Positions 96 through 33,393 of a stretch of DNA of 36,109 nt are shown here, piece by piece. Made by a program: the position numbers and the translations under genes. Within the stretch, counting starts at the first letter, position 1. Every line of letters begins with the position of its first letter. The notes under the pieces are model-generated. The model saw only the letters and a program-made list of their open reading frames with translations. It was not told where the DNA came from and searched no databases. Source of the stretch: Acidobacteria bacterium RIFCSPLOWO2_12_FULL_67_14b (GTDB lineage Bacteria > Acidobacteriota > Vicinamibacteria > Vicinamibacterales > UBA2999); NCBI GenBank assembly GCA_001768615.1, contig MELE01000041.1, positions 1-36,109 of the forward strand, read 5' to 3'.

Positions 96-632
96 TCAGG
101 TGCCGGTGGGCGCGGTGTTGAGCACGGCCGCCAGCATCGCGTAGTAGCCGCAGAGGCCAACGGCATCGATGACGCCTCTCTCACCAACCGCCTGCAGTGC
201 GCGGCCATACACGGCATTCGGGACAATCTGACGGTCGTGCACAGCCCGGCACAGCTCGAAGAGGGCCGCTTCGTCTTCGCCCAATTCCGGCGGCCGCCGG
301 CCCGCCGCGAGCGCGTCGATGGTGGACGGCTGCACGCCCGAATTCAGGGCGATCGGCGCGTGCACATCCCACTCGTACTGCTGCCGCCAATGCGCGGCCG
401 TGATCAGAATCACGAGCTCGCTCAGGCGCGGCGCGAGCGCGCTGCGGAACCGCAGGTACTCGCCGAGCGCGCTCACGCGCGTCAGGAGTTCAGGGCTGTG
501 AAGAAGCGGAATAAAGGGACCGAACGGCTCGGTCCCCCGGAGTCGCTTGAACTCCTCGATGGCCTGGCGCTGCTCGAGTGTCGCAGGCGGGTCTAAAGAC
601 CCGCCTTTACGCGGTGGCGGCCGGTAACCCAT
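96..632 (-). CDS. Carboxymuconolactone decarboxylase / AhpD-like protein
   Basis: The 178-residue protein resembles the all-helical carboxymuconolactone decarboxylase (AhpD-like) family. The central stretch LSELVILITAAHWRQQYEW followed by DVH matches the conserved helix of that family. The CxxC pair of peroxidase-type AhpD proteins is absent, so a decarboxylase or lactone-type role, or an unknown one, is likelier than peroxidase. The only usable start is the ATG at 632, which overlaps the aminotransferase gene upstream by 26 bp, so the two are probably translationally coupled. Residues 10-16 (GGSLDPP) are encoded by a perfect palindrome at 585-606, so the N-terminus looks like a late addition. 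The substrate is not deducible. Confidence 0.75.
   Translation of the reverse strand: MGYRPPPRKGGSLDPPATLEQRQAIEEFKRLRGTEPFGPFIPLLHSPELLTRVSALGEYLRFRSALAPRLSELVILITAAHWRQQYEWDVHAPIALNSGVQPSTIDALAAGRRPPELGEDEAALFELCRAVHDRQIVPNAVYGRALQAVGERGVIDAVGLCGYYAMLAAVLNTAPTGT
585..606. repeat. Hairpin-family element (TAAA loop, 9-bp stem)
   Basis: Perfect inverted repeat with 9-bp arms aggcgggtc / gacccgcct around TAAA. It begins directly after the stop codon of the aminotransferase gene (607-609, minus strand) and is read in frame by the next gene. It is a member of the dispersed C-TTTA-G hairpin family seen at 10963, 13166, 15567, 27404 and 33372. Confidence 0.85.
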
Positions 633-1902
633 TCTTCAGCAGGTCTTCCATCGCCATGATGAACGTGTCGATCTCCTCGAGCGGCGTGTAGATGTTCGGC
701 GTCACGCGGATGCCGTTGTACTCGGGCCGGTTGATCGCCGTCGTCACGATGCGGTACTTGTCCCACATGAAGGCGTTGATCCGCGGCGCCGGGATGTCCT
801 TGATGCCGACGCAGGCCACGCCGTAGACCTGATCGAGGCCCGTGTGGATCACCACGCGCGGGTTGGTCTTGAGCTTGTTGGCCCAGCGGAGCGTCAGGTA
901 ACGGAGCCGCGCGGCCACACGCTCGGTGCCGATGGCCTGGTGGAACGCGAGCGCCTCGTTGATCGCGGCCTTGGTGGCGGCCGGCGAGGTGCCGATTTCC
1001 TCGAACTTACGGATGTCGTTCTCGCTCCGGAGGGGCGCGGCCTGCAGCGGCCACGTCTTCGCGATCCGGTCCCGCCGCACGTAGAGGAACCCGGTGCCGG
1101 TCGGCGCCAGCAGCCACTTGTGGAGGCTGGTGCCGTAGTAATCCATCTCGAGGTCGCGCAGCTTGAACGGGAAATGCGCCACGGCATGTGCGCCGTCGAC
1201 GATGGTGATGATGTTGCGCGAGCGCGCCATGCGCGAGATGTTCTGCACCGGGAAGATCTGGCCGGTGAGGTTGGTGATGTGGCAGAAGTGCAGCACTTTC
1301 GTGCGCGGCGTGATCGCGCCCTCGAGGCGCGCAAAGAGATCCTCGCCGGTGGTCGGCACCGGGAAATTGATCTTCGTGATCTTGATCTTGTCGCGGCGGG
1401 CGCGCTGGTCCCACGTGGTGAGCATGCGGCCGTAGTCCTGCTCGGTGGTCAGCACCTCATCGCCGGGCTCGAGGTCGAGGCCGTTCTGCGCGATCTGCAG
1501 CGACTCGCTCGAATTGCGCGTGATCGCCATTTCCTCCGGGTCGCAGCCGAACTCGGCGGCCAGCCGGCGGCGGGCCACCTCGATGTTCCGCTCGATGATC
1601 CCGCGGTGAAACACCGGCGCCTGGTTCGAGTAGTCGAGGTAGCGCTTGTAGGCTTCGTGAACCACCGTCGGACTTGGGCAGCTGTTGCCATTGTTGAGGT
1701 TGATCAACGAGCGATCGAGCGAGAAGGCGCTCTGAATCTCGCGCCAGTAGAATTCGTCGCGCGCCACGTCATCAGCCGAACGGTCGCCGAGCGCCCGCGA
1801 CGCCTGCGCCACCAGCTCGATACTGTTGTCGCCGATGACAAACGCGCCGGCGCCCAGGGCCCCGGTCATTCGCAAAAACGCACGTCGATTCGTCTTCATC
1901 AT
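607..1902 (-). CDS. Tat-exported class V aminotransferase (isopenicillin-N-epimerase-like)
   Basis: A 431-residue PLP-dependent fold-type I enzyme of aminotransferase class V, closest in look to the isopenicillin N epimerase / CefD-like group. The PLP-binding aspartate lies in VDGAHA (D236) and the Schiff-base lysine in TSLHKWLLAPTG (K262). The N-terminus carries a twin-arginine signal (NRRAFLRM, residues 5-12) followed by a hydrophobic stretch, so the enzyme is probably folded with its cofactor and exported by Tat. A Shine-Dalgarno GGGAGGG precedes the ATG and a perfect TATAAT lies at 1926-1921. It is divergent from the M28 peptidase gene and first of a two-gene unit with the AhpD-like gene. 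Substrate unknown; a racemase, desulfurase or lyase activity is equally possible. Confidence 0.88.
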   Translation of the reverse strand: MMKTNRRAFLRMTGALGAGAFVIGDNSIELVAQASRALGDRSADDVARDEFYWREIQSAFSLDRSLINLNNGNSCPSPTVVHEAYKRYLDYSNQAPVFHRGIIERNIEVARRRLAAEFGCDPEEMAITRNSSESLQIAQNGLDLEPGDEVLTTEQDYGRMLTTWDQRARRDKIKITKINFPVPTTGEDLFARLEGAITPRTKVLHFCHITNLTGQIFPVQNISRMARSRNIITIVDGAHAVAHFPFKLRDLEMDYYGTSLHKWLLAPTGTGFLYVRRDRIAKTWPLQAAPLRSENDIRKFEEIGTSPAATKAAINEALAFHQAIGTERVAARLRYLTLRWANKLKTNPRVVIHTGLDQVYGVACVGIKDIPAPRINAFMWDKYRIVTTAINRPEYNGIRVTPNIYTPLEEIDTFIMAMEDLLKNGLPAATA

Positions 1903-1920
1903 TCCCTCCCGATCGCGGGA

Positions 1921-1946
1921 ATTATACCCGCGTTGAGGAGTAGAAT
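1921..1946. promoter_or_regulatory. Divergent -10 elements between aminotransferase and peptidase genes
   Basis: The 50-bp gap holds TATAAT on the minus strand (1926-1921), 18 nt from the aminotransferase start with a Shine-Dalgarno between. On the plus strand TAGAAT at 1941-1946 ends 6 nt before the peptidase ATG, while GGAG at 1937-1940 is about 12 nt from it. The plus-strand arrangement would give a nearly leaderless message. No convincing -35 box is visible for either. Confidence 0.45.
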
Positions 1947-1952
1947 CGCGCC

Positions 1953-3416: not shown

Positions 3417-3421
3417 TAAGT

Positions 3422-9540: not shown

Positions 9541-9551
9541 GGGTCAGACCC
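9541..9551. repeat. Short palindrome at a stop codon
   Basis: gggtc-a-gaccc, an 11-bp perfect palindrome. Its last base is the first base (plus coordinates) of the stop codon of the downstream minus-strand gene (9551-9553). It resembles the C-TTTA-G hairpins in position but not in core sequence. Confidence 0.55.
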
Positions 9552-10942
9552 TACCGTCGGAGCATGGCCGTGCCGTTCCGTTTTGGCACCTGTCCTACTG
9601 GAATACGAGCGATTTCCTTCAGAGTTGCAATATTCACTACCGAAACCGCATTGTCCCCGGCCGCAGCCACATAGACGAACTTGCCGTCTGGCGAGAACGT
9701 CACCCATTCCGGATGTTGTCCCACGTGGACGGTCCCGATCGGCTTCAGGTCCGGCAGCGAGTAGGCGTACAGCTGGCTGAACACCTTGCTCGTCGCGATG
9801 AGGGTCTTTCCATCGGGCGTGACGCCCAATCCATGCGCCGGGGCACCCTGCAGACCCTGCGTGTGCTTCTCCTCGCCTGGAATGTCCGCCATGGGGAACC
9901 GGGACACCTCCTTGCGCGAGGCAAAATCCACCACGGCGATGCCGTGATAGTCCGACAGCTGGACGAAGATCCTGGACGTCGAGCCGTCTTTCGCCTGCTC
10001 GAACGTCATGGGACGCACCCCGGCCGACATCTGCAGCTCCCAGGCCACGGTCTCGGTGGCGGCATCGATCACCGTCAGCATGCGGCCGGGAATCGAGCCT
10101 GACACCACGTACTTGCCGTCAGGGGTCACGTAGACGTTGTGGATCGCACCCTTGACGGGAATCGACTTCGCGTTGGTCAGCGTCACGGTGTCGATCACGT
10201 CGACGGCGCCGGGCGCCTGGGCAATCCCGACGTAAACGCGCTTGCCGTCCTTCCCCACGAAGACGTTGTTGGGGCGGCCGCTGAGCGGGATCCGCGCGGT
10301 CACGGCCAGCGTGATGGCATCCACGACGTCGAGCGTGTGGAGGGCTTCGTTGGAGAAGTAGAGCCGCGTGCCGTCGGGTGCGCTCGTGACGCCGTGCGGC
10401 ACCTCGATGTCATGGATGACGCCCACGACCGTGTTGGTCGCGGGGTCGATCAGGTGGATATTGTCGCCGGCGGCGTTGGTCTGGATGATGCGCGCCACGC
10501 GGGCGTCGGTGCCGGCCGTGAGCGTCGCGCCGTTGACCCAGGCCGACAGCACCCGCCAGTCCGGATCGTCCTTGGTGGTCCAGTGCTGCCCGCCGCCATG
10601 GAACACGTCGCCGCCGGCGGCGCGGGCCAGCGGATGCCGCAACAGACGGCTCGCGCCCGGGCTGCCGGGCACGACCATCGCCCTGGCGGCCTCGAAATTC
10701 TGGCGCGTCTGCTCCTCGTTCCAAGCGGTGGCGCCCGGCGCGAAGCGTTGCAGGCGAAGCGTGGTGCTGCCGGCGTGGCAGGTCACGCACCGCGCGTGAT
10801 CCACACGCTTCTCGGTGAACAACGGCTGCACGCGGGCTTTGAAGAACTCGTAGTCGAGCGTCGGACCGGATGCCGGCGGTGCGGGCGGCGGCGTGGCGGG
10901 CTGCTGTCCCAGCAGCGCGGCCATAAGCAGTTCGAGCAGCAT
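9551..10942 (-). CDS. Cytochrome c domain fused to YVTN beta-propeller
   Basis: A 463-residue exported protein. A short signal peptide (about 1-12) and a proline-rich linker are followed by a c-type heme site CVTCH (52-56). From about residue 145 a seven-bladed propeller of the YVTN/SMP-30-like type follows, with repeated signatures IDPATNTVVG, TPDGKYVVSG, SPDGKFVYVAAAGDNAVSV and ATLKEIARIPVG. Such fusions act as periplasmic redox or binding proteins; electron transfer to or from a partner held by the propeller is a reasonable guess. It is transcribed away from the mxa-like operon, whose first gene begins 159 bp upstream. The same strand continues after 53 bp with the second cytochrome gene. 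Confidence 0.85.
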   Translation of the reverse strand: MLLELLMAALLGQQPATPPPAPPASGPTLDYEFFKARVQPLFTEKRVDHARCVTCHAGSTTLRLQRFAPGATAWNEEQTRQNFEAARAMVVPGSPGASRLLRHPLARAAGGDVFHGGGQHWTTKDDPDWRVLSAWVNGATLTAGTDARVARIIQTNAAGDNIHLIDPATNTVVGVIHDIEVPHGVTSAPDGTRLYFSNEALHTLDVVDAITLAVTARIPLSGRPNNVFVGKDGKRVYVGIAQAPGAVDVIDTVTLTNAKSIPVKGAIHNVYVTPDGKYVVSGSIPGRMLTVIDAATETVAWELQMSAGVRPMTFEQAKDGSTSRIFVQLSDYHGIAVVDFASRKEVSRFPMADIPGEEKHTQGLQGAPAHGLGVTPDGKTLIATSKVFSQLYAYSLPDLKPIGTVHVGQHPEWVTFSPDGKFVYVAAAGDNAVSVVNIATLKEIARIPVGQVPKRNGTAMLRR

Positions 10943-10962: not shown

Positions 10963-10984
10963 GGACAAACCTGAAGGTTTGTCC
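10963..10984. repeat. Hairpin-family element (TGAA loop) with tandem flank
   Basis: Perfect inverted repeat with 9-bp arms ggacaaacc / ggtttgtcc around TGAA. Directly behind it, gtccctacc recurs at 10981-10989 and 10998-11006, each followed by gtcgtc, giving a 16-17 bp period up to about 11019. The element lies in the divergent gap between the YVTN cytochrome and moxR genes. The same arm sequence occurs at 33359-33393. Confidence 0.85.
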
Positions 10985-11101
10985 CTACCCGTCGTCTGTC
11001 CCTACCGTCGTCCGTCCCCGGACAGGACGCTCGCAGGTTTTGGGGAATTCTAGCGCCATTCGTCACGCATCGGATACGATTGGCGTTTTCAAGGCGGACA
11101 C

Positions 11102-12142
11102 GTGCATCCTGACCTCCAAGACGCGATCGCCTTCCACGAAGCCATTCTCGCGGAAGGCAGCAAGGCCCTCGTCGGTTATACCCAGCCAAAGATCCTGGCC
11201 AACGTCGTGCTGCTGTCGGAGATTCCGACCACCTACGACAAGAAGGAGCAGCGGCAGGTCAACTCAGGCAACCTGCTCTTGCGAGGGGTCCCGGGCGTCG
11301 GCAAGACGTTTTTCGGCGTGATTCTCGCGGCCATCAGCAACGCGAAGTTCGCCCGCATCCAGGGCCGCGCCGACCTGCAGCCCACCGAGGTGGTGGGCTT
11401 CCAGATGATCAACCCGGCCACGGGCGTGCTCACCACCGAAATGGGTCCGCTCGCCGAAGCCGAAGTGATCCTGCTCGACGAGATCAACCGCATTCCCCTC
11501 AAGTCGCAGAGCGCGTTCCTCGAAGGCTTGCAGGACCGCACCGTCACGGTCGGCAAGACGACCTACGAATTGCCGGCCTTCAACTTCGCCATCGCGACGA
11601 TGAACCCGGTGGAGCTCGGCCAGGGCACGTTCCCGCTGTCGGAAGCGGCCACGGATCGCTTCGCGATCATGGTGAACATCGGCTACCTGCCGCCCGAGGA
11701 AGAGCGCAAGCTGGTGAACTTCGACTTCAAGCAGGTGCGGCTCAACCCGCTGATGAGGAAGGAACGGATCATCGAGTTGCGCTCGGCGATCAGCGAACAC
11801 GTGTTCCTCCACGAGCGGCTGGGGGACTACATCCAGCGGCTGGTCTCGAACACGCGGCCCTACAACCCCGACACCGACTGGCTGCGGCACTCGCCGTCGG
11901 AGCTGGTCGAGACCGGCGTCGACCTCGGCGCCTCGCCGCGCGCGATCATCGTGTGGGGCCGTCTCGCGAAGGTGTGGGCGATTCTCGTCCGCCGCCGCGA
12001 CGAGGTCTACCCGGAAGACATCCAGGACCTGGCGACCTACGTCCTGGCCCACCGCCTCTGGCTGGGGCCGCACGCCGCCAGCCATGGCCTCACCACCGAC
12101 GCGGTGATCAAAGACATCATCGAGCGCACGCCTATCCCATGA
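11102..12142 (+). CDS. moxR: MoxR-family AAA+ ATPase (MxaR-like)
   Basis: A 346-residue cytoplasmic AAA+ ATPase of the MoxR family, a chaperone type that works with VWA proteins to mature or activate enzymes. Walker A is GVPGVGKT (62-69), Walker B VILLDE (122-127), sensor-1 asparagine in ATMNP (165-169), and an arginine finger candidate in EAATDRF. The start is GTG 11102, preceded by AAGGCGG. The stop overlaps the start of the DUF58 gene as ATGA. Position and length fit MxaR, the first gene of the mxaRSACKL cluster needed for calcium loading of methanol dehydrogenase in methylotrophs. Whether it does that here is unknown because no dehydrogenase gene is in view. Confidence 0.92.
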   Translation: MHPDLQDAIAFHEAILAEGSKALVGYTQPKILANVVLLSEIPTTYDKKEQRQVNSGNLLLRGVPGVGKTFFGVILAAISNAKFARIQGRADLQPTEVVGFQMINPATGVLTTEMGPLAEAEVILLDEINRIPLKSQSAFLEGLQDRTVTVGKTTYELPAFNFAIATMNPVELGQGTFPLSEAATDRFAIMVNIGYLPPEEERKLVNFDFKQVRLNPLMRKERIIELRSAISEHVFLHERLGDYIQRLVSNTRPYNPDTDWLRHSPSELVETGVDLGASPRAIIVWGRLAKVWAILVRRRDEVYPEDIQDLATYVLAHRLWLGPHAASHGLTTDAVIKDIIERTPIP

Positions 12143-13104
12143 GGACGCGGCCGTCTTCGATTGTCACGCCCGAAGAGCGCGCCGATCCGCTCATCGACCT
12201 GTCCGAGATCACGGAAGTCGAGCTGCTCATCCTCAAGCGGATGCGCGAGTTCACCATCGGCGAGCACTCGAGCCTGTTCCACGGGACCGGCTTTGATTTC
12301 GTCGGCCTCCGCGACTGGCAGTCGGGCGATCGGTTCGAGGCCATCGACTGGGCGCAGTCGTCGCTCACCAACTTCAGCCCGCTGATCGTCCGCGAGTTCG
12401 AGCAGCCGACGACCTCCGGCGTCGTGATCGTGGCGGATCGCTCCGCGTCGACGCGCTGCGGCGTCGACACGGGCGGGGCCGACCGCGCCGGCATGCAGAT
12501 CGCGACGCTGATCGCGCGGGCGATCGCCACCGTCGGCATGTCGGCGGTGTTCTTCCAGGACTCGATCGGCCTGATCACGTTCGACGAGGGATTCCGCGAC
12601 CTCCGCGCCGTCCGCCCCCGGATCGGCAAGGGCCAGGTGATCCACTGCCTCGAGGCCTACCAGCACGGCTACGGGCTGCAGGACCTGCGGCACACCGGCA
12701 ACCTCAGCGCCACGCTCAGCGGCTTCTCGCGCAAGACGTCGATGATGCCGGTGATCTCGGACTTCCTGTTCGACGACGCGGAGGAGTTCCTGCGGGAGCT
12801 GGCGCAGGTCAACAACGTGCACGACGTGTTCGTGATGATGGTGGACGCGTCGTTCGCGTTCGAGCTGCCCAAGGTCTCGGCGGGGTGGATCGAGGTCTAC
12901 GACGTCGAGACGGGCAAGACCCGGATGATGTCGCGCGGCGAGCTCAGCCATCAGAGCGAGCGGATCCGCCTGTGGCAGGACGAAGTGACGCGCCAGGCGA
13001 AGCAGCTCGACCTGGATGTCGTGCGCCTCACGCTCGATCAGGTGAAGTTCGACGTCGCGCTCATCGAGTGGGTCGCGGAGCGCCGCCTTCGGCGCCGCAA
13101 GTAG
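12139..13104 (+). CDS. DUF58 protein with VWA-like fold (MxaS-like)
   Basis: A 321-residue protein of the DUF58 family, the standard partner of MoxR ATPases. Family marks are FHGTGFDFVGLRDWQSGD (about 48-63), RFEAIDWAQSS and a degenerate metal-ion-dependent adhesion site VADRSAST (98-105). No signal peptide or membrane segment is seen, so it is cytoplasmic like other DUF58 proteins. ATG 12139 is chosen over a longer open frame because it makes the 4-bp ATGA overlap with moxR, a sign of translational coupling. By order it corresponds to mxaS. Confidence 0.9.
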   Translation: MRTRPSSIVTPEERADPLIDLSEITEVELLILKRMREFTIGEHSSLFHGTGFDFVGLRDWQSGDRFEAIDWAQSSLTNFSPLIVREFEQPTTSGVVIVADRSASTRCGVDTGGADRAGMQIATLIARAIATVGMSAVFFQDSIGLITFDEGFRDLRAVRPRIGKGQVIHCLEAYQHGYGLQDLRHTGNLSATLSGFSRKTSMMPVISDFLFDDAEEFLRELAQVNNVHDVFVMMVDASFAFELPKVSAGWIEVYDVETGKTRMMSRGELSHQSERIRLWQDEVTRQAKQLDLDVVRLTLDQVKFDVALIEWVAERRLRRRK

Positions 13105-13116
13105 AGTCAAGAGTGC

Positions 13117-13158
13117 AGAGTTCAGAGTTCAGAGTTCAGAGTTCAGAGTTCAGAGTTG
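13117..13158. repeat. Heptamer tandem repeat (agagttc)x6
   Basis: Five perfect copies of agagttc and a sixth ending in g. It lies in the 101-bp spacer between the DUF58 and MxaA-like genes, directly upstream of a hairpin-family element. Confidence 0.92.
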
Positions 13159-13165
13159 CAGGGAG

Positions 13166-13185
13166 GGCGGAACTTTAGTTCCGCC
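13166..13185. repeat. Hairpin-family element (TTTA loop, 8-bp stem)
   Basis: Perfect inverted repeat with arms ggcggaac / gttccgcc around TTTA, 20 bp before the ATG of the MxaA-like gene. It may affect translation or RNA stability within the operon; nothing in the sequence proves this. Confidence 0.85.
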
Positions 13186-13205: not shown

Positions 13206-14360
13206 ATGAAGACACACACACTCATCGTTGCCCTGCTGGCAGGCCTGATCGTTCCCGCGGCCGCGGGCGCGCAGACCGGGACCGACATGGTCGAGGTCGA
13301 GCCGATCACCTGCTGGTGGCGGACGAGCACCAGCGCGGTGCGCACCGGCGAGCCGTTCGGGCTCACCCTGACGTGCGCCGTGCTCGAAACCGAGTCGACG
13401 AAGATCGTCCCGGACTTCTCCAAGCTGGAAGCCAACGTGGTGCAGCTACCGCCCTTCGAGGTCCTCGGCGGGACCCACCCGTCGGACCTGGTCACCGTCG
13501 GCAAGCGGTTCTTCCAGTACGACTACCGCCTTCGGCTGCTCGCCGAGGACGCCTTCGGCGCCGACGTCGCGGTGCCGCCGCTCGAGGTCACCTATCGGGT
13601 CGAGAGCAAGGTGTCGGGCGGCGAGTCGGTGCAAGGCCGCGACCAGAGCTACGCCCTGCCACGCGCGGCGATTCGCCTGATCTCGCTCGTGCCCGACGAC
13701 ACGACCGACATTCGCGAAGCGCCGGCGGCGCCGTTTTCGGCCATCGAGTCGCGGGTGTCGCGCGCGAACCTGTTTCAGACCATCGCCGGCGTGCTGTTCA
13801 CGCTCGCCGGTCTCGTCGCGCTGCTCGTGCTCGTCAGCCTGTTCCGCCGCAAGACGCCGGCCGGCGAGGCCGCGCGGCGGCGGGTGCCCGCGCGCCGGAT
13901 TCTCGCCGCCGCCGCCACCGAACTGGCCGAGATCCAGCGGGCCAGCCGCGGCGGATGGACCGGCGAACTGGCGGGCCGCGCGCTGGCGGCGCTCCGCCTG
14001 GCGGGCAGCTATGCGATCGGCCGCGCGGTGGGACAACGGGTGGCGAAAGCCGGGGAAACCGCGGTCGAAGGCGAACTGCTCGTCGGCGGTGGATTCGGGC
14101 GTCCGAAGGCGCTGGTGTCCGGATCGGTCACACCGGAAGCCGCGCCCGAGCGCGCCGCGCCGGGACTCGCCGGCGCGCTGCGCTCGCTCACGGTCGTCCG
14201 CTACGGGCGCCACGAGGCGTTCGGCTCCGCCGCGGATGAGGCGGTGGAAACGGCGATCCGGCTGACGACGCAACAGCAGGCGGCCCATTCGTTGCTCACG
14301 GAGTGGACCAACGCCTTCGTGCAGTCGCTGGTGGACCTGCGCAAGAAGGTCTGGGCCTGA
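13206..14360 (+). CDS. Membrane-anchored exported protein (MxaA/BatD-like)
   Basis: A 384-residue protein with a signal peptide (about 1-22, ending AAGAQ). An exported beta-rich domain (about 30-190) contains GEPFGLTLTCAVLE and YDYRLRLLAEDAFG. A transmembrane helix follows at about 196-218 (the LFTLAGLVALLVLVSLF region) and then a cytoplasmic helical tail of about 165 residues. The layout of exported domain, helix and cytoplasmic tail is that of BatD and of MxaA. I cannot place it by sequence alone; its position between a DUF58 and a VWA gene makes it the MxaA equivalent. The start is ATG 13206 with only a weak GAGAG upstream. Confidence 0.75.
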   Translation: MKTHTLIVALLAGLIVPAAAGAQTGTDMVEVEPITCWWRTSTSAVRTGEPFGLTLTCAVLETESTKIVPDFSKLEANVVQLPPFEVLGGTHPSDLVTVGKRFFQYDYRLRLLAEDAFGADVAVPPLEVTYRVESKVSGGESVQGRDQSYALPRAAIRLISLVPDDTTDIREAPAAPFSAIESRVSRANLFQTIAGVLFTLAGLVALLVLVSLFRRKTPAGEAARRRVPARRILAAAATELAEIQRASRGGWTGELAGRALAALRLAGSYAIGRAVGQRVAKAGETAVEGELLVGGGFGRPKALVSGSVTPEAAPERAAPGLAGALRSLTVVRYGRHEAFGSAADEAVETAIRLTTQQQAAHSLLTEWTNAFVQSLVDLRKKVWA

Positions 14361-14364
14361 CCAA

Positions 14365-14409
14365 GGTGCGTACGGTGCGTACGGTGCCTAGGGTGCGTAC
14401 GGTGCGAAA
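14365..14409. repeat. 9-bp tandem repeat (ggtgcgtac)
   Basis: Units ggtgcgtac, ggtgcgtac, ggtgcctag, ggtgcgtac and a partial ggtgcgaaa, in the spacer between the MxaA-like gene and the first VWA gene. The reverse complement of the same unit occurs at 32132-32167. Confidence 0.9.
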
Positions 14410-14423
14410 GACGGCATAGAGCG

Positions 14424-15527
14424 ATGCAACTCGTCCGGGATCTGGCAGCGCTGCTCGAGGCCACGTGGGCCGAACTGGGAGAGCTCCGTCTCGAACGCCT
14501 GCTCTTCGCCGAAAGCGCCACGGCACGGCAGGCGGTGATCGCGCTCATCGGGCTGGCGATCGTCTTCATCGTGATTCGATCGTTCGGCGCCAGCAACCCG
14601 GGCCACAAGCGGATGGCACTGCCGGCCATCGTGACGAGCGCCGGCTGGTCGCGCGCGTCGTTGTCGCGGCATGGCGCGCTCATCCTGGCGCTGGCGGGCC
14701 TGCCCTTCTTCGTGCTCGCGCTCGGCGACCCGCGGACCGCCCTGACCCGGTCCGAGACCACCTATCCCGGCCGCCGCATCAGCCTGCTGATCGACGCCTC
14801 GTCCAGCATGCTGTCGGCACTGCCCTCCACGCGACTGGCGAAGGGCGCGCCGAACAACGCCGCCTTCTTCACCACCGTCGGCGCCGCGCGGTTCTTCATC
14901 GAGCGCCGCATGCAGGGAAAGTACCGCGACCTGATGGCGCTGATCGAGTTCGGTGACGATGCGTACGTCATCACGCCGTTCACGACCGATTACGAGAACA
15001 TCCTGTTGAGCACGTCGCTCATCGGCGACTGGAACGAGTTCATGGCGTTTCCCGACCAGGGCACGGTCGTCGCGCGCGCGGTGGAACAGGCGGTCGGCCT
15101 GTTCCAGGCGTTCGACTACCTCGACTCGGCTGGCAACCTGCTGGTGATCTTCACCGACGGCGCCGACGCCGACGTGCTCGAGAACGGCAAGACCGTGGAT
15201 GACGTGCTGGCCGAGGCGACCCGCGCGAAGATTCCCGTCTACCTGATCAAGATCGGCGGCAACATCGCCAACAAGCGCAGCGTCGCCGACGAGCTGTGGA
15301 TCAACGCCGTGCAGAAGACCGGGGGGAAGTTCTTCTCGGGCGCCGACGAGGCGATGATCATCGAGTCGATCCGCGCCATCGATCGTTCGTCGCCGGGCAA
15401 GATAGACATCAAGCAGTACAGCACGGAGCGGCCGCGGTATGCGCCGTTCGCGCTGGCCGGTGCGGGGTTCTGGTGCCTGGCGCTGTTGTTGCGGTTTACG
15501 GTACCGACGTTCCAGACGTTTCCGTGA
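14424..15527 (+). CDS. Membrane VWA-domain protein (MxaC-like)
   Basis: A 367-residue membrane protein. Transmembrane helices lie at about 36-52 and 84-100, followed by a von Willebrand factor A domain whose metal-ion-dependent adhesion site DASSSM (124-129) is intact and is completed by FTDGADAD further on. A last helix lies at about 341-358. The layout of two N-terminal helices, VWA and C-terminal helix is shared by BatA/BatB and MxaC. Such proteins are thought to act in the membrane as the output arm of a MoxR-DUF58 chaperone system. Start ATG 14424; the ribosome-binding site is poor. Confidence 0.87.
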   Translation: MQLVRDLAALLEATWAELGELRLERLLFAESATARQAVIALIGLAIVFIVIRSFGASNPGHKRMALPAIVTSAGWSRASLSRHGALILALAGLPFFVLALGDPRTALTRSETTYPGRRISLLIDASSSMLSALPSTRLAKGAPNNAAFFTTVGAARFFIERRMQGKYRDLMALIEFGDDAYVITPFTTDYENILLSTSLIGDWNEFMAFPDQGTVVARAVEQAVGLFQAFDYLDSAGNLLVIFTDGADADVLENGKTVDDVLAEATRAKIPVYLIKIGGNIANKRSVADELWINAVQKTGGKFFSGADEAMIIESIRAIDRSSPGKIDIKQYSTERPRYAPFALAGAGFWCLALLLRFTVPTFQTFP

Positions 15528-15533: not shown

Positions 15534-15560
15534 CGGGCTCCGGGCTCCGGGCTCCGGGTG
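15534..15560. repeat. Heptamer tandem repeat (cgggctc)x3.5
   Basis: Three perfect 7-bp units and a partial one, in the spacer after the first VWA gene and 6 bp before a hairpin element. The same heptamer family is found at 19831-19858 inside the HAD gene. Confidence 0.85.
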
Positions 15561-15566
15561 TTGTCG

Positions 15567-15586
15567 AGCGGACCTTTAGGTCCGCT
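15567..15586. repeat. Hairpin-family element (TTTA loop, 8-bp stem)
   Basis: Perfect inverted repeat with arms agcggacc / ggtccgct around TTTA. It ends just upstream of the strong Shine-Dalgarno (gaggagaagg) of the MxaK-like gene. Confidence 0.85.
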
Positions 15587-17374: not shown

Positions 17375-17389
17375 TGTCTCACGGGTACA

Positions 17390-17592
17390 TTGACAATTGA
17401 CAATTGACCGATCGGGCGACTGTTTGGTGATTGGGCGATGTGAGATTGAGTGATTGGGTTTGGCGATTCACGATTGTGACGATTGGCTGCCGGTGCGGCG
17501 GCGAATCGCCAGATCGACAATCCGGATCACAATCACCCAATTGACAATTCGACAATCGCTAAACAATCGCAAAATCGGTCGATCGACGATCG
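17390..17592. repeat. Degenerate heptamer arrays in inverted orientation, convergent spacer
   Basis: The 218-bp gap between convergent genes is AT-richer than its surroundings. The left half starts with ttgacaa, ttgacaa, ttgaccg and continues with many gattg-type units; the right half repeats the complement (gacaatc, caatcac, acaattc, aatcgca). The two halves could pair over long imperfect stems. No open frame of quality or classic terminator is seen. Confidence 0.7.
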
Positions 17593-19819: not shown

Positions 19820-20550
19820 AAGCCGCTGACGGGCTCCGCGCTCCGGGCTCCGGGCTCAAACCATCCGCGCTGCAGGCCATCGTCTTCGACTTCGACGGGG
19901 TCATCGCCGACAGCGAGCGCCTGCACCTTCGCGTGTACCAGGAGATCCTTGCGCCCGAAGGCATCACCGTGTCGGAGGAGGACTACTACTCGCGCTACCT
20001 CGGCTACGACGACGTGGGCGTGTTCAAGGCGATCGGCAAGGATCACGGTCTGCCGATGGACGACGGGCGCGTGACGACGCTGGTGACGCAGAAGGGCCGC
20101 CGCTACGAGGCCTTGGCAGCCGCCGGCGAGATGCTGTTTCCGGGCGCGGCCGATTTCATCCGGGCGGCGGCGGCGGTGGTGCCCCTGGCGATCGCCTCGG
20201 GCGCGCTGACGCACGAGATCGAGGACGTGCTGGAGCGCGCCGGGCTGCGCGCGCTGTTTCCGGTGATCGTCGGGGCCGATCAGACCGCGCGCAGCAAGCC
20301 GAGCCCCGATCCGTACGTGACGGCATTTGCGAAGCTGTGTGCGCACACGGGCCGGGACCTGGTGCCATGGCGATCGGTCGCCATCGAAGACTCGAAGTGG
20401 GGACTGGTGTCGGCCCGGGGCGCCGACCTGCGCTGCGTGGCCGTGACCAACACGTATTCGGAACAGGAACTGCGTGCCGACGCCGAACTCGTCGTGCCCG
20501 GGCTGCACGCACTGACGATTGCCGCGCTGGACGCGCTGTGTGCCGACTGA
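19816..20550 (+). CDS. HAD-family phosphatase/phosphomutase
   Basis: A 244-residue HAD hydrolase of the beta-phosphoglucomutase-like subgroup. Motif I is DFDGV (D25 nucleophile, D27), motif II ASGA, motif III lysine in SKPSPDPY, and motif IV IEDSKWG. A helical cap lies between about 35 and 100, as in small-molecule phosphatases. Residues 6-14 (GLRAPGSGL) are encoded by a heptamer repeat at 19831-19858, so the first 15-18 residues are probably an acquired extension. The start overlaps the DUF1684 stop by 4 bp. The substrate is likely a sugar phosphate or similar metabolite. Confidence 0.88.
   Translation: MKAADGLRAPGSGLKPSALQAIVFDFDGVIADSERLHLRVYQEILAPEGITVSEEDYYSRYLGYDDVGVFKAIGKDHGLPMDDGRVTTLVTQKGRRYEALAAAGEMLFPGAADFIRAAAAVVPLAIASGALTHEIEDVLERAGLRALFPVIVGADQTARSKPSPDPYVTAFAKLCAHTGRDLVPWRSVAIEDSKWGLVSARGADLRCVAVTNTYSEQELRADAELVVPGLHALTIAALDALCAD
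19831..19858. repeat. Heptamer repeat inside the HAD gene
   Basis: Units gggctcc, gcgctcc, gggctcc, gggctca, in frame with the HAD gene near its N-terminus. It is the same unit family as at 15534-15560, but here it is translated. Confidence 0.85.
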
Positions 20551-25890: not shown

Positions 25891-27062
25891 TGTCCGGAGG
25901 ATCCTTGGGAAAATGAACCCGGCGTCCTCAGTCCTACTAACGACACGCCGAACGCCACGAGCATAATCGCCGCCGCGCTCAGATACGGCGTGGTCATCCC
26001 ATAGGCGTCGTACAGATAACCGCCCCATGCCGGACCGACGACCCGCCCGAGGCTCGCCAGCGAGGAGGCCAGGCCGAGCGTGCCGCCCTGATCGTCGGCA
26101 TCGGCCGTCTTCGACACCATCGCCGACAGCGCCGGACTGTTGAAGCCCATGCCGAGCGCGAGCACCGCGAGCGCGACCAGCAGCGTCGGCACGCTCCAGG
26201 CAAACGGCACCAGGCCGACGCCGACCGCAATCGCGAAGATGGCCACGGGAATCAGCCTCGCCTCTCCCACGCGCTTGACGACCTTGTGCACGAGCACACC
26301 CTGCACGAGCGCGAGGACGACACCGATGTACGCGAACAGGAAGCCGATCGAGGCCGCGGTGAACCCGAAGCGGCTCTCGCTGAACAGCGCGAACGTCGCC
26401 TCGAAGCCCGAGAAGGCGGCGGTGACGATGAAGTAGAGGGCCAGCAGCAGGACGAGCGTGGGCTTGGTCATCGCGTGCCGGAAGGCGTCGAGGCGGCCGA
26501 GGCCCTTGGTCTCCGGGTTCGCGGCGCGCGATTCGGGCAGGAGGAACCAGGCCGCGATGAAATTCGACAGGCACAGGGCGGAGGCGGTCCACATCGGCGC
26601 CTCCGGGCTGATCCGGCTGAGGACGCCGCCGATGGCCGGTCCGAAGATGAACCCCAGCCCGAATGCCGCGCCCACCATGCCCATGCCCTTGGCGCGGTTC
26701 TCGGGCGTGGTCACGTCCGCGATGTAGGCCTGGGCCGTCGGGATGTTCGCGCCCGCGATGCCGCCGAGAATGCGCGCCACGAACACCAGCGTCAGCGACG
26801 TGGCCAGCGCCAGCGTGAGGTACGACACGCACGACCCCATCAGGCCCAGGAGGATGATCGGCTTGCGCCCGATGCGATCCGACCAGCGCCCCCAGATCGG
26901 CGAAAACACGAACTGCATCAGCGAAAAGCTCGTGCCGAGCAGGCCGATCGCGAACGCCGAGGCGCCGAACGACTCGGCATAGAACGGCAACAGCGGGATG
27001 ATGATGCCGAACCCGAGAAGGTCGATGAACACCGTGACGAAAATGACGGCGAGCGGCGACAT
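25887..27062 (-). CDS. MFS drug/metabolite exporter (DHA1, TetA-like)
   Basis: A 391-residue major facilitator with 12 predicted helices. Motif A is GRWSDRIGRKP between helices 2 and 3, and the antiporter motif C appears in GAAFGLGFIFGPAIGG in helix 5. These are the marks of the 12-helix drug:proton antiporter family that includes TetA-type pumps. Substrate cannot be deduced. The ATG shares one base with the TGA of the preceding gene (TGATG), so translation is probably coupled. Confidence 0.9.
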   Translation of the reverse strand: MSPLAVIFVTVFIDLLGFGIIIPLLPFYAESFGASAFAIGLLGTSFSLMQFVFSPIWGRWSDRIGRKPIILLGLMGSCVSYLTLALATSLTLVFVARILGGIAGANIPTAQAYIADVTTPENRAKGMGMVGAAFGLGFIFGPAIGGVLSRISPEAPMWTASALCLSNFIAAWFLLPESRAANPETKGLGRLDAFRHAMTKPTLVLLLALYFIVTAAFSGFEATFALFSESRFGFTAASIGFLFAYIGVVLALVQGVLVHKVVKRVGEARLIPVAIFAIAVGVGLVPFAWSVPTLLVALAVLALGMGFNSPALSAMVSKTADADDQGGTLGLASSLASLGRVVGPAWGGYLYDAYGMTTPYLSAAAIMLVAFGVSLVGLRTPGSFSQGSSGQ

Positions 27063-27784
27063 CACGAGCGGGCGTGCAGCCACAACGAGACGAGCGTGTA
27101 GTAGATCGGGTACAGCAACGACACGGCGATCCAGGGCCCGTCGGTGACCGGCAGCCGCCACACGATCATCAGGACGATCAGCGCCCACGCCGACCCAAGG
27201 AGGATCGTCGGCGCTCGCAGGGTCAGGGTGCGCGAGGGATACACGTATCGAATCGGCACGAAGACGAGGACCGACAGCACGAGCAGAATCGCGGCGTTGG
27301 TCACGGGCGACAGGCCCAGCACGAAGAGGTACAGGGCGGCGATATTCCAGTACGACGGGAAGCCCGTGAAGAAGTATTCCTGCAGCGACCCCCCGTCGCG
27401 TGGCGACACACCTTTAGGTGTGTCGACCATCACCTTGTGATCGGCCTGTCCGAACCCGTACGCGCTTGCCAGCAACACCGCCCCGCCCACCCACAGCACC
27501 GAGCCCTCGGGCAGCAGTCCCGCGCGCCAGATCAGCAGGACCGGCACGAAGACGTAGGTCAGGTAATCGACGACGTCGTCGAGCCGGCTGCCGTCGTACT
27601 GGGGCAGGCGCTGCTTCACGCGCAGCGCGCGGGCGAGCATGCCGTCGGTGGCGTCGACCACCGTCGCGGCAATCAGGGCGAGGAAGGCCGTCCGGTAATC
27701 ACGCTCGACGATCGCGAGCGTGGCGGCCAGCGCCAGCACGGCGCCCAGGGCGGTGTAGAAGTGCGCGACCCAGGCCAGAGTCAC
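27062..27784 (-). CDS. pcs: CDP-alcohol phosphatidyltransferase, phosphatidylcholine-synthase-like
   Basis: A 240-residue integral membrane enzyme. The CDP-alcohol motif reads DATDGMLAR at 44-52, then twelve residues, then GSRLDDVVDYLTY. That spacing (twelve instead of eight residues before the glycine) and the VDYLTYVFVP continuation match bacterial phosphatidylcholine synthase, which joins choline to CDP-diacylglycerol in one step. FPSYWN further on is also typical. Between the third-helix region and that motif, the protein has an extra block including VDTPKGVSP that is encoded by a hairpin-family palindrome (27404-27425). It starts at GTG 27784, 1 bp after the ThyX stop. A related phosphatidylserine/phosphatidylglycerol-type activity remains possible. 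Confidence 0.8.
   Translation of the reverse strand: MTLAWVAHFYTALGAVLALAATLAIVERDYRTAFLALIAATVVDATDGMLARALRVKQRLPQYDGSRLDDVVDYLTYVFVPVLLIWRAGLLPEGSVLWVGGAVLLASAYGFGQADHKVMVDTPKGVSPRDGGSLQEYFFTGFPSYWNIAALYLFVLGLSPVTNAAILLVLSVLVFVPIRYVYPSRTLTLRAPTILLGSAWALIVLMIVWRLPVTDGPWIAVSLLYPIYYTLVSLWLHARS
27404..27425. repeat. Hairpin-family element inside a coding sequence
   Basis: Perfect inverted repeat with 9-bp arms cgacacacc / ggtgtgtcg around TTTA. It lies inside the phosphatidylcholine-synthase-like gene and is read as VDTPKGVS without breaking the frame. Confidence 0.88.
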
Positions 27785-29386: not shown

Positions 29387-29791
29387 ATGAAAAACTTGTT
29401 TCACTCGCTCGCGTTGGCGCTCGTACTGATGCCGGCCGTCGCCTCGGCCCAGGCATCCCTGACGCCGGCTGATGCCGGCGACTTCATGGGCACGTGGACC
29501 CTCACGCTCGACAGCCCTCAGGGACCCTTCGAACAGACCCTGGTGCTGAAGGACAAGGCCGGGAAGGTCGTCGCGGAGATGACCAGCCAGATGCAGCCGG
29601 ACGTGCAGGAAGTCACCGACGTCAGCAAGGACCAGGAGAGCCTGGTCCTGAAATTCGCCGGCAATTTCCAGGGCAACCCGTTTGACGCCGTGATCACCGT
29701 GTCGCCGGATGGCGCCGACAAGGCGAAGGTGCTCTTCGACATCAACGGCGGCCAGTTTTCGATGAGCGGGACCGGCGCCAAGAAGAGGTAA
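29387..29791 (+). CDS. Small secreted protein of unknown function
   Basis: A 134-residue protein with a clear signal peptide (K2, hydrophobic 6-20, cleavage near ASAQA). The mature part has lipocalin-like alternating strands (GTWTLTLDSPQGPFEQTLVL, KVVAEMTSQM, LKFAGNFQG, FDAVITVSPDG, VLFDINGGQFSM). It resembles the small beta-sheet proteins found next to metal-dependent hydrolases in Acidobacteria, but I give it no name. It is followed directly by a heptamer repeat that starts at the last base of the stop codon. Confidence 0.75.
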   Translation: MKNLFHSLALALVLMPAVASAQASLTPADAGDFMGTWTLTLDSPQGPFEQTLVLKDKAGKVVAEMTSQMQPDVQEVTDVSKDQESLVLKFAGNFQGNPFDAVITVSPDGADKAKVLFDINGGQFSMSGTGAKKR

Positions 29792-29825
29792 GAAGGCAGA
29801 AGGCAGAAGGCAGAAGGCAGAAGGC
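29791..29825. repeat. Heptamer tandem repeat (agaaggc)x5
   Basis: Five perfect 7-bp units that begin at the final base of the stop codon of the small secreted protein gene. Confidence 0.92.
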
Positions 29826-29849
29826 AAGAAGTCTTCCACCTTCCCCCGG

Positions 29850-31824: not shown

Positions 31825-32173
31825 CGCGGCACCTCCCGTTCTGGTAAACCGACGACACGAGCTGAAAAGCGTCTGCAACTAACGCGAGTGAATGATCCGA
31901 GACTCTTTTCCTTGTCTGTATAACGAGTAGTCGGCTCAACTCGATAACCCATTACCCCAGCGGCGGCTGCAGTGTAGCGCGACGGTCCACGGCGATCCAA
32001 CGGGAGATAGGCCGACCTGGATAAACCGATACTCCGGCGTCGCTTCGCAAGGTTTCCGGTAGATTCGCCACGAACGCGCGTACACCACCGGGCACCCGAG
32101 CACCCCAGCACCTTCGCACCAACCCCTTTGGGCACCCCAGGCACCGTACGCACCGTACGCACCGTACACCGTC
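31825..32173. other. 349-bp gap without a gene
   Basis: No convincing coding potential. It is AT-richer around 31860-31970. Its right third carries 8-bp units (32090-32121) and 9-bp units (32132-32167) next to the deformylase stop. Confidence 0.6.
32090..32167. repeat. 8-bp then 9-bp tandem repeats
   Basis: Units gggcaccc, gagcaccc, cagcacct, tcgcacca (8 bp) at 32090-32121. Then gcaccccag followed by three gcaccgtac units (9 bp) at 32132-32167. The 9-bp unit is the reverse complement of the one at 14365; the 8-bp unit is that of 32783. Confidence 0.85.
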
Positions 32174-32713
32174 CTACTCATCCTCATCGTCCGCGCGCTT
32201 GGCGTGGTAGCGCGCGTACTCCTCGAGGTAGGTCAGCGTTTCGAGCGACCGCATGCGATCGAAGAACAGCACGCCGTCGAGATGATCGGTCTCGTGCTGG
32301 ATCACGCGCGCGGGGAAATCGACGACGTCCAGCTCGTAGCGCTTGCCTTCCCGGTCGAGCGCCGACAGCTTGATGTGATGCGCCCGTGGCACGCGGCCGC
32401 GAATGTCGGGAATGCTCAGGCAGCCTTCCCAGCCCTCGACGGTCTGGTCGTCGAGGACGAGGATCTCCGGATTGATGACGATGGTGGCGTCGCCTTCGCC
32501 GCGGCCGTCGGGGTCGAGCATGGCCACGAACAGCCGGATGCCTTCGTGCACTTGCGGCGCCGCGAGGCCGACGCCCGAGTACTCGAACATGGTATCGACC
32601 ATGTCGTCGATGAATTGCTGAAGGCCCGGCGTCTTCAGCTCGGCCTTTTCGATGGGCCGTGCCTTGGCGCGAAGGACGGGATGGCCCATCCGGGCCACTT
32701 TCAGGATCGACAT
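32174..32713 (-). CDS. def: Peptide deformylase
   Basis: A 179-residue peptide deformylase, the metalloenzyme that removes the formyl group from nascent proteins. All three motifs are present: GVGLAAPQ (47-54), EGCLS (96-100) and HETDH (140-144), giving metal ligands C98, H140 and H144 and catalytic E141. The sequence begins MSILKVARMGHPVLR as usual. A -10-like TATAAG (32727-32722) ends 8 nt before the ATG and there is no Shine-Dalgarno, so the message may be leaderless. No fmt gene lies beside it, unlike the common arrangement. Confidence 0.96.
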   Translation of the reverse strand: MSILKVARMGHPVLRAKARPIEKAELKTPGLQQFIDDMVDTMFEYSGVGLAAPQVHEGIRLFVAMLDPDGRGEGDATIVINPEILVLDDQTVEGWEGCLSIPDIRGRVPRAHHIKLSALDREGKRYELDVVDFPARVIQHETDHLDGVLFFDRMRSLETLTYLEEYARYHAKRADDEDE

Positions 32714-32721
32714 GACGCGAT

Positions 32722-32727
32722 CTTATA
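32722..32727 (-). promoter_or_regulatory. -10-like box before def
   Basis: TATAAG on the minus strand, 8 nt from the def start codon, without a ribosome-binding site in between. Confidence 0.4.
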
Positions 32728-32733
32728 CTCCCA

Positions 32734-32838
32734 GGTGCTGGGGTGCACAGGTGCTGGAGTGCTGGGGTGCAGTGGTTCACCTAAGCACCCGAGCACCCAA
32801 GCACTCAAGCACCCAAGCACTCAAGCACCCAAGCACCC
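32734..32838. repeat. Inverted arrays of 8-bp repeats
   Basis: The left part (32734-32781) has units such as ggtgctgg, ggtgcaca, ggtgctgg, agtgctgg, ggtgcagt. The right part (32783-32838) has seven 8-bp units, aagcaccc or aagcactc with one gagcaccc. The two parts are complementary in type and can form long stems. They fill the divergent gap between def and the NUDIX gene. Confidence 0.88.
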
Positions 32839-32843
32839 AAGAG

Positions 32844-33383
32844 ATGCATTCCCACGATATGAACCCGCCCTACAAGTTCTGTCCCGTTTGCGGGAGCCCG
32901 CTCGAGCCGAGGGTCCTGAAGATCACCGAGCCCAAGCGCCTGGTGTGCACGAGCGCCGCGTGCGGGTTCGTGTTCTACCTGGATCCAAAGATTGCGGCGG
33001 CCACGATCATCCGCGTGAACGAGGGGCGGCAGATCGTGCTGGTGAAGCGGGCGATCGAGCCGGGGTATGGCAAGTGGGTGTTTCCGGGCGGCTACGTCGA
33101 TCGCGGTGAGGAGATCACGCTGGCCGCCGTCCGCGAGGCCAGGGAGGAAGCCGGGCTCGACGTGCGGCTCGATCGCCTGGTCGGCATCTACTCGTACGCC
33201 GGGCGGGCGCCGGTGATTATCGTCTACGCGGCGACCAAGCTGTCTGGTGAGCTGGCCGTGGATGACGAGGGCCTGGAGGCGCGCGAGTTCGACCTCGACG
33301 CGATTCCGTGGGACGAGCTCGCGTTTCGCAGCACGAAGGAAGCGTTGCGGGATTATTTGGACAAACCTGAAGGACAAACCTAA
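32844..33383 (+). CDS. NUDIX hydrolase with N-terminal zinc ribbon
   Basis: A 179-residue NUDIX protein. A zinc ribbon is formed by C13, C16, C35 and C40 (FCPVCGSPL, CTSAACGF). The Nudix box runs from G82 to about L105 and contains GGYVDRGEE and REAREEAGL, so the magnesium-binding glutamates are intact. The ribbon recalls NudC-type NAD pyrophosphatases, but the protein is shorter; ADP-ribose or a sugar nucleotide are alternative substrates. The first six residues may be extra: a second ATG lies at 32859. The last codons and the stop are supplied by a hairpin-family element. Confidence 0.9.
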   Translation: MHSHDMNPPYKFCPVCGSPLEPRVLKITEPKRLVCTSAACGFVFYLDPKIAAATIIRVNEGRQIVLVKRAIEPGYGKWVFPGGYVDRGEEITLAAVREAREEAGLDVRLDRLVGIYSYAGRAPVIIVYAATKLSGELAVDDEGLEAREFDLDAIPWDELAFRSTKEALRDYLDKPEGQT

Positions 33384-33393
33384 AGGTTTGTCC
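33359..33393. repeat. Hairpin-family element plus half copy at a gene end
   Basis: A half element (ggacaaacctgaa, 33359-33371) precedes a complete one with arms ggacaaacc / ggtttgtcc around TAAA (33372-33393). The TAA stop of the NUDIX gene (33381-33383) is the first three bases of the loop. The arms equal those at 10963-10984. Confidence 0.9.

Follow-up and report, generated by a model that had tools for sequence, protein, structure and literature searches.

Tagged REP elements and their RAYT transposases have been described in several accounts, which are cited here from excerpts. Nunvar et al. (2010; PMC2817692) noted that slightly modified REPs retain their palindrome and suggested that complementary mutations are selected. 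In the GTAG-tagged REP superfamily of Di Nocera et al. (2013; PMC3733652), most families divide into sub-families that use alternative, mutually complementary residues in the stem, and members have a 5' tetranucleotide, a stem of 6–9 bp, a short loop that is often TY, single and paired copies, and a cognate RAYT. The hosts named in that account are Proteobacteria, Cyanobacteria, Chloroflexi and the PVC group; the excerpted text mentions Acidobacteria only for transposases with unrelated terminal repeats. For the Marinomonas (Mb) RAYT, Corneloup et al. (2021; PMC8266576) reported that the TTTA loop requires T12, T13 and A15 while position 14 is free, and that most stem swaps are tolerated, a whole-stem swap reducing cleavage moderately, while mismatches in the stem are harmful. 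In the Pseudomonas/Stenotrophomonas orthoswitch (Nunvar et al., 2013; PMC3686654), related genomes hold different REP classes and related RAYTs.

The window analyzed here, a stretch of 36,109 nucleotides from an uncultured member of the Acidobacteriota, contains hairpins that resemble these systems closely. We consider it very probable that they are tagged REP elements, now or recently mobilised as folded ssDNA by stem-tolerant RAYT (TnpA-REP) HuH transposases. They share with the GTAG superfamily the features listed above, including alternative complementary stem residues and a cognate RAYT, and with the Group 3 REPtrons of Marinomonas and Stenotrophomonas (Sm) their perfect palindromes, the Mb loop also being TTTA (PMC8266576). 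There are also differences. The Mb stem is 5 bp long and lies 2 nt from its tag, whereas the stems here are of 8–9 bp and adjoin the tag, and 69 of the 74 rows of our sample have T or C at position 14, which is free in Mb. The GGAG tag of some of our elements is not among the variants that the excerpts of PMC3733652 give (GYAG, GYRG, GTRG, GTMG, GTGG). A fixed loop with changing, self-matching stems fits published RAYT enzymology, so what was observed, although genuine, belongs to a known kind. A literature search for GGACAAACC or GGTTTGTCC returned, among the matches listed, none that was about REPs by its title.

Tagged Hairpins in the Window and in the Genome

The first-pass annotation had reported six hairpins and a half copy, with perfect arms of 8 or 9 bp around C-G closed TTTA, TAAA or TGAA loops, and all of these were found (Table 1). 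Its description did not mention a tetranucleotide that lies 5' of the hairpin. Read on the TTTA/TTCA strand, an element consists of this tetranucleotide, mostly GTAG, GTGG or GGAG, followed by an 8–9 bp stem with a C-TTYA-G cap; if the T and A at the ends of TTYA are counted as paired, the stem gains one T-A pair and the loop shrinks to TY. The palindromic stem and short loop (8–9 bp, TTYA cap) are those of tagged REPs, as is a GT(A/G)G tag at the 5' base of the stem, from which GGAG departs. Within the window, three of the six tags are GTAG or GTGG, and GGAG, GTAA and GTCG occur once each. The half copy and the 3' half of the neighbouring REP stand in tandem, forming a 13-bp tandem repeat at 33359-33386.

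Table 1. Tagged hairpins of the window, with their strand, parts and gene setting.
Feature	Position	Hairpin	Strand	Tag	Stem	Loop	Class	Setting or remarks
REP	585..610	585-606	-	GTAA	AGGCGGGTC	TTTA	B	Directly past stop of Aminotran_5 ORF 607-1902 (-); overlaps start region of CMD ORF 96-632 (-)
REP	10963..10988	10963-10984	-	GTAG	GGACAAACC	TTCA	A	Divergent ORFs either side, 9551-10942 (-, beta-propeller) and 11102-12142 (+, MoxR-type AAA)
REP	13162..13185	13166-13185	+	GGAG	GGCGGAAC	TTTA	C	ORF 11953-13104 (+, DUF58) on one side, ORF 13206-14360 (+) on the other
REP	15563..15586	15567-15586	+	GTCG	AGCGGACC	TTTA	C	ORF 14424-15527 (+, VWA) on one side, ORF 15601-16254 (+) on the other
REP	27400..27425	27404-27425	+	GTGG	CGACACACC	TTTA	A	Within ORF 27062-27784 (-), whose sole Pfam match, CDP-OH_P_transf, is under cut-off
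Half REP	33359..33371		-		right arm GGTTTGTCC	TTCA		Letters GGACAAACCTGAA
REP	33372..33397	33372-33393	-	GTGG	GGACAAACC	TTTA	A	Loop contains stop codon of NUDIX ORF 32652-33383 (+); then MacB/FtsX ORF 33413-35860 (-)

A census of perfect stems of at least 8 bp with a 4-nt loop, covering 430,005 bases of the same genome after exclusion of N runs, revealed that the elements are dispersed well beyond the window and exceed what base composition predicts. The caps CTGAAG/CTTCAG and CTAAAG/CTTTAG closed 20 and 19 stems, respectively, giving 39 for C-TTYA-G against 0 in a single order-3 Markov control, and every other cap closed at most two. The tags of these 39 elements were GTAG (11), GTGG (11), GGAG (7) and other letters (10), some of the last because the stem end is shifted by one base. 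The copy number is likewise that of REP elements: 40 contigs chosen by number (515,234 bases) yielded 20 perfect elements. Perfect hairpins of 8–10 bp with unrelated loops also exist in the window, as would be expected if the family were a chance product of a GC-rich genome. That explanation is vanishingly improbable, however, as this cap alone is enriched and the elements are absent from same-genus stretches of similar GC content (0 in 120 kb of G107 and 0 in 91 kb of G213).

The first-pass annotation had also suggested selection on an RNA hairpin. Transcription terminators or mRNA-stabilising hairpins, whose stems drift freely, would suit the position of several elements at or just past gene ends, and Di Nocera et al. 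(2013; PMC3733652, excerpts) place REPs mainly downstream of genes and consider a possible action in RNA. We regard this as very unlikely. At least five T in the 8 nt past the hairpin were found in 1 of 74 elements on the tag strand and in 0 of 74 on the other, wobble pairs made up 3 of the 19 non-Watson-Crick cells, and tag conservation is limited to one strand. Orientation relative to tandem genes had no clear bias in crude gene calls (13 same, 10 opposite), and the same-genus stretches without elements also argue against a role in RNA. Of the 74 rows, 41 lay between ORFs and 33 inside them, according to a crude gene finder that missed three Pfam-matching ORFs in the window. An Rfam scan of the window gave no match, and a search of it for tRNA and tmRNA found none.

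Stem Classes and Covariation

In a 74-row sample, in which two TTAA loci were entered on both strands, the 55 perfect rows had 25 distinct stems that cluster in a few classes. Class A (GTGG-nnACAAACC) is the commonest, its pattern having 74 matches in the whole genome, and class D is the GGAG-AGCGACGGC-TTTA-GCCGTCGCT hairpin. Tag and stem class are linked: 24 of 28 class A rows have GTGG, 17 of 21 class B rows GTAG and all nine class D rows GGAG, with class C mixed. Stems thus recur, the 22-mer GGACAAACCTNAAGGTTTGTCC alone having 36 genome copies, and the earlier view that only the loop is kept does not hold. The same 22-mer is also present in several other phyla. Nor do both arms always match, as had been claimed from the window: among 67 tag-anchored elements with up to three mismatches allowed (945,239 bases), 46 were perfect, 19 had one mismatch, none had two and two had three. 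Six scrambled or complementary tags, used as the control for this anchor, yielded three perfect 8-bp matches.

The proposal of a dispersed family that is maintained as a hairpin, with covariation, was borne out. Among 36 rows, selected for at most one mismatch, cells changed on both sides numbered 107 against a shuffled mean of 31.8, and the covariation score was 0.782 against 0.237. Two of the five measures were not above shuffles, namely pairs changed on both sides (7, equalled in 159 of 500 shuffles) and further pair types (16, equalled in 465 of 500).

Template switching at imperfect palindromes can rewrite one arm from the other, and the second arm had been suggested to be templated from the first. 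The distribution of mismatches, with 46 perfect elements, 19 with one mismatch and none with two, is also what fast correction would produce. However, half-changed stems between ACAAACC and ACACACC were found for both arms, so ordinary mutation with selection, or selective copying, suffices and arm templating is not needed; furthermore, a few stems recur across most of the copies, as copying of whole elements predicts. Templated copying may contribute, but it is unlikely to be the main source of matching arms.

RAYT Genes and Their Flanking Elements

The genome has five Y1_Tnp genes, and the search for a RAYT-like gene that had been advised succeeded. The C178 gene encodes a Y1 domain (Pfam Y1_Tnp, 39.6 bits, cut-off 23), exceeds the NCBIfam REP_Tyr_transpos cut-off (109.1, cut-off 80), and has the RAYT motif columns, which are invariant across six aligned proteins and which we take to be the HuH and Y-NPVR motifs. 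Three GGAG-AGCGACGGC-TTTA elements border it: a pair to one side, and to the opposite side a single copy in inverted orientation. Same-genus RAYTs are accompanied by a 20-copy class D array in G107, by class B elements in G167 and by flanking class C and D elements in G298. RAYTs flanked by like elements are therefore found for class D (this genome), class B (G167) and class C (G298). Tagged CTTYAG elements were present at 5 of 30 fetched same-genus Y1 loci; among the 30 best phylum-wide Y1 loci, 8 had such elements, 8 had other tagged hairpins and 14 had none.

Class A elements were not found directly beside any RAYT in this genome, at the same-genus loci or in genomes holding the 22-mer. Closest to class A were the Y1 genes of C48 and C47, each scoring under the NCBIfam cut-off and lying ~0.7 kb from a class A element, and one in G285 (~1.2 kb). 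None of 10 Y1 genes in four 22-mer-holding genomes lay directly beside the 22-mer, and a tblastn search with the five Y1 proteins against 88 foreign 22-mer loci detected a RAYT at one only, L096. Elsewhere, some REP classes have been retained in genomes where no RAYT was detected (Nunvar et al., 2013; PMC3686654, excerpts).

Based on the published biochemistry of other RAYTs, the enzymes here would recognize, cleave and mobilise the elements by reading tag and loop and requiring a paired stem, while accepting many stem sequences. Such reading, pairing need and tolerance would lead to a fixed cap and to stems altered in both arms. It is probable that several RAYT/REP lineages have spread in the genus and that each has a stem and tag class of its own; a new stem would come either from two ordinary mutations, one after the other, or from a variant that spread together with its RAYT. 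The first-pass annotation was right about a covarying family kept as hairpins and about a RAYT-like gene. Its contrast with RAYT-mobilised REPs, said usually to keep their stem sequence, falls away, since complementary stem changes are already published in the excerpted accounts (PMC2817692, PMC3733652) and the Marinomonas RAYT bears most stem swaps (PMC8266576). Its suggestion of selection on RNA is not favoured.

These data would extend loop-reading, stem-tolerant REP/RAYT pairs to uncultured Acidobacteriota. Relative to the excerpts of the published accounts, what goes further is the GGAG class with its own RAYT, which searches restricted to GT(A/G)G would miss, and an orthologous site with six stem types. 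One genus whose related RAYTs have differing flanking tags and stems is a natural set for finding the residues that read them, and a hairpin common letter for letter to several phyla raises the question of whether RAYT/REP pairs cross phyla or converge.

Distribution among Relatives and Shared Sites

The elements are patchy among close relatives. The class A pattern, with its 74 matches here, occurred 105, 15, 4, 3 and 9 times in five same-genus genomes and was absent from three. In a comparison of orthologous loci, which had been advised as a check for precise insertion or loss, the flank alignments were ragged (70–84% identity) and gave no demonstration of an element inserted precisely at a formerly empty site. 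The site at 15563-15586, in the gap separating the VWA gene from its downstream neighbour, has a tagged hairpin in seven of nine same-genus genomes, with six stem types, the six relatives having stems other than that in the window, and has none in the other two. The orthoswitch, as excerpted from PMC3686654, concerns REPs around orthologous RAYT genes, whereas this site with different stems in seven genomes is without a RAYT.

Overall, a REP was present at the orthologous place in 60 of 188 directed genome pairs, compared to 38 of 755 for REP-free control gaps. The 15563 site supplied 42 of the 60 shared pairs; without it, 18 of 132 pairs shared a REP, compared with 38 of 755 control gaps (nominal p 0.0007), and those 18 pairs fell on nine sites, where the stems differed at six and agreed at three. 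As the pairs are non-independent, the gap lengths unmatched and the TTGAT-loop type added to the REP definition only after its sighting at the 15563 site, this sharing only suggests that there are insertion hot spots in the genus. In-place exchange, by which a REP at an intergenic site is swapped for one of another stem class, the tagged hairpin being kept with a sequence that suits the currently active RAYT, is doubtful, and a hot spot with repeated independent insertion is the simpler reading of the 15563 site.

Flanking bases, searched in redundant sets for a trace of the cleavage site, had some positional biases and no dinucleotide at one distance across all classes. Lastly, 18 coding-like frames stop within an element: nine at the tag (eight TAG, one TAA), eight in the loop read backwards and one elsewhere, several elements entering this tally in both directions. 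Other frames enter elements or run through them (27 sense, 34 antisense), so that the number of stops is near the random-frame expectation.

Copy number and anatomy of the hairpin family

The six hairpins and the half copy described in the first-pass annotation were all borne out in the window sequence (see table). In 430,005 non-N bases, comprising the window and 20 stretches of same-genome contigs already known to have matches, we found 20 perfect stems of ≥8 bp with a 4-nt loop closed by CTGAAG/CTTCAG caps and 19 by CTAAAG/CTTTAG caps, with no other cap above 2. A single order-3 Markov sequence, used as the control, had 0 of either, and the perfect stems are thus more numerous than chance would give. 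The elements are also present in the rest of the genome, as 40 contigs picked by number alone (515,234 bases) held 20 perfect elements of ≥7 bp, which extrapolates to a genome-wide total of ~200. Same-genus stretches of similar GC content contained 0 elements in genomes G107 (120 kb) and G213 (91 kb).

A 5′ tag had been overlooked in the earlier annotation: GTAG, GTGG or GGAG lies directly 5′ of the hairpin in 29 of 39 cases, on the strand with the TTTA/TTCA loop. Anchoring a search of 945,239 bases on tag and cap returned 46 perfect elements, 19 with one mismatch, 0 with two and 2 with three, and the earlier statement that the arms always match perfectly therefore fails genome-wide. Six scrambled or complementary tags, used as a control, gave 3 perfect 8-bp matches and 0 with one mismatch. 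In a 74-row sample, the tag was associated with stem class (A–D are labels coined here). A further class, GTRG-nGTCCGGC-TTTA-GCCGGACn, was noted in syntenic stretches of G298 and G297 (L282, L280, L277, L278, L259, L271), where it is commoner than in the window's genome; inverted pairs are frequent, and in most copies one unpaired base separates tag from stem.

Table. Coordinates, stem classes (74-row sample) and shared-site hairpins (window 15563-15586).
Feature	Location	Stem or description	Tag
Element	585-606		GTAA
Element	10963-10984		GTAG
Element	13166-13185		GGAG
Element	15567-15586		GTCG
Element	27404-27425		GTGG
Element	33372-33393		GTGG
Half copy	33359-33371		
Compound arrangement	33359-33397	One left arm, two tandem loop-plus-right-arm halves (TTTA then TTCA)	
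Tandem arrays	13110-13157, 14365-14406, 15534-15558, 17389-17408, 19830-19857, 29791-29831, 32141-32167, 32778-32841	Units of 7, 8 or 9 bp: AGAGTTC, GGTGCGTAC, CGGGCTC, ATTGACA, AGAAGGC, GCACCGTAC, CACCCAAG	
G107 array	L168:893-2317	~20 copies of GGAG-AGCGACGGC, regular arrays both sides of one RAYT gene	GGAG
Class A		nnACAmACC	GTGG 24, GTAG 4
Class B		nGGCGGGnC	GTAG 17/21
Class C		nGCGGnnC	GGAG 5, GTAG 4, GTCG 1
Class D		Stem end GGC	GGAG 9/9 rows (2 are one TTAA locus counted on both strands)
Shared site	Window's genome	AGCGGACC	GTCG
Shared site	G285, G298	AGGCGGGTC; G298 with TTGA	
Shared site	G167	AGGCGGGAC	
Shared site	G300	GGACCAACC/GGTTTGTCC, one mismatch	
Shared site	G297	GGCATCCC, TTGAT loop	
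Shared site	G107	GGCCCCCC, TTGAT loop	

Covariation of the stems

The reported covariation held up among 36 distinct 26-mers: in 107 cells both sides had changed (mean of shuffles 31.8), and the covariation score was 0.782, compared to 0.237 for shuffled and ≤0.239 for slid versions, with two of five covariation measures not above shuffles. Paired cells made up 96.3%, a figure inflated because rows were selected for at most one mismatch. No variation was seen in the closing C-G or in the second pair of the stem. Half-changed stems between ACAAACC and ACACACC are present, with the change in either arm. Wobble pairs account for only 3 of the 19 non-Watson-Crick cells; nothing therefore points to RNA selection, which is not favoured. 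Nor is the contrast drawn earlier with RAYT-mobilised REPs supported, since complementary stem changes in REPs are described by Nunvar 2010 (PMC2817692) and Di Nocera 2013 (PMC3733652). Switching of REP class is described by Nunvar 2013 (PMC3686654).

In a Marinomonas group-3 RAYT described by Corneloup et al. 2021 (PMC8266576), T12, T13 and A15 of the TTTA loop are required and position 14 is free, a whole-stem swap is tolerated with moderate loss, a stem mismatch leads to poor cleavage, and the tag helps to select the cleavage site. A similar enzyme would leave the anatomy found here, a fixed cap with a paired but variable stem, and by analogy we infer that a RAYT may recognize and cleave the elements in the window's genome. 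Here, 69/74 rows have T or C at position 14, which is stricter than in Marinomonas, where any base is accepted.

RAYT genes and their flanking elements

The genome carries five Y1_Tnp genes. The search for a RAYT-like gene proposed earlier was successful, as the gene on contig C178 passes the NCBIfam cut-off (109.1 vs 80). Scores of the remaining four run from 59.6 to 79.9. Two GGAG-AGCGACGGC-TTTA elements, adjoined by GGAG-GGCGGGGAC, border the C178 gene on one side, and an inverted one borders it on the other. RAYT genes of the same genus are accompanied by class D elements in G107 (an array of 20 copies) and G300 (one element) and by class B elements in G167; in G298, class C elements are at one RAYT gene and a single class D element is at a second. 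Tagged CTTYAG elements were missing at 25 of 30 Y1 loci retrieved from eight same-genus genomes. Of the best 30 loci phylum-wide, 8 had such elements, 8 had other tagged hairpins and 14 had neither. In a Zixibacteria record, GTAG-GGACAGGGC-TTTA flanks a related RAYT, and GTAG-GGACAAACC-TTCA is nearby. Still other stems, with cap C-TTNA-G, flank RAYT genes of other Acidobacteriota at L165, L166, L170 and L171 (same order) and L177 (phylum). Judged by the look of translated ORFs, the class D RAYT, with the same AGCGACGGC-type REP, has one and the same gene as its neighbour in L121, L168 and L224 (G000, G107, G298).

For class A, the search found no RAYT with elements directly at its flanks. The distance between a class A element and the Y1 gene is ~0.7 kb on contigs C48 and C47 and ~1.2 kb in G285, which the ±1000 nt rule of a 2018 survey (PMC6006769) would partly allow. 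The search tags given there are GTAG or GTGG, and the tag variants listed in the portion covered of PMC3733652 do not include GGAG. The five REP papers ranked first in a literature search had no word starting with GGAG, a result confined to these texts.

Distribution among genomes

The word GGACAAACCTNAAGGTTTGTCC has 36 copies in the window's genome. Other records, all metagenome-assembled, contain it in at least 88 stretches, and the matches listed are assigned to Acidobacteriota, Nitrospirae, Chloroflexi, Planctomycetes (one Brocadiales), Opitutaceae and Zixiibacteriota. Where the word is on one short contig only, the record may be misfiled, as with the Opitutaceae contig that shares JAUSDY's sample. 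The Nitrospirae genome MHER carries the word on numerous contigs, where it forms inverted pairs with GTAG-GGACAGACC. With GTGG as the tag, the class A pattern occurs 74 times in the window's genome and 105, 15, 4, 3 and 9 times in five same-genus genomes; three others of the genus and 51 more genomes of the family and order had 0. Identical Y1 places match G285, G297 and G300 to the MAGs JAUSDY, NSIL (Baikal-G1) and CAMBHC, which puts the window in a genus of uncultured Acidobacteriota. Overall, the REP/RAYT family is real and well formed; within the literature covered it is new for the genus, and it is of an already known type.

A shared intergenic site

A tagged hairpin lies between a VWA gene and the next gene in 7/9 same-genus genomes, with six stem types; G299 and G213 have none at this site. 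The simpler reading is a hot spot of repeated insertion. A bolder reading is that the REP was exchanged in place. Away from this site, REP site sharing was modest (18/132 vs 38/755 control gaps).

Other sequence features

Two of the window's short tandem arrays are directly 5′ of REPs, and those near 13103-13157 and 14362-14406 have dozens of other matches in this genome and its relatives. The compound arrangement looks as if two REPs differing in a loop base had recombined or slipped. In the 74 sampled rows, coding-like frames were observed to terminate within elements (window 585, 33372 and others), through TAG/TAA in the tag in 9 cases and TAA/TGA in the loop read backwards in 8. Each TTYA loop is a stop codon on the opposite strand.
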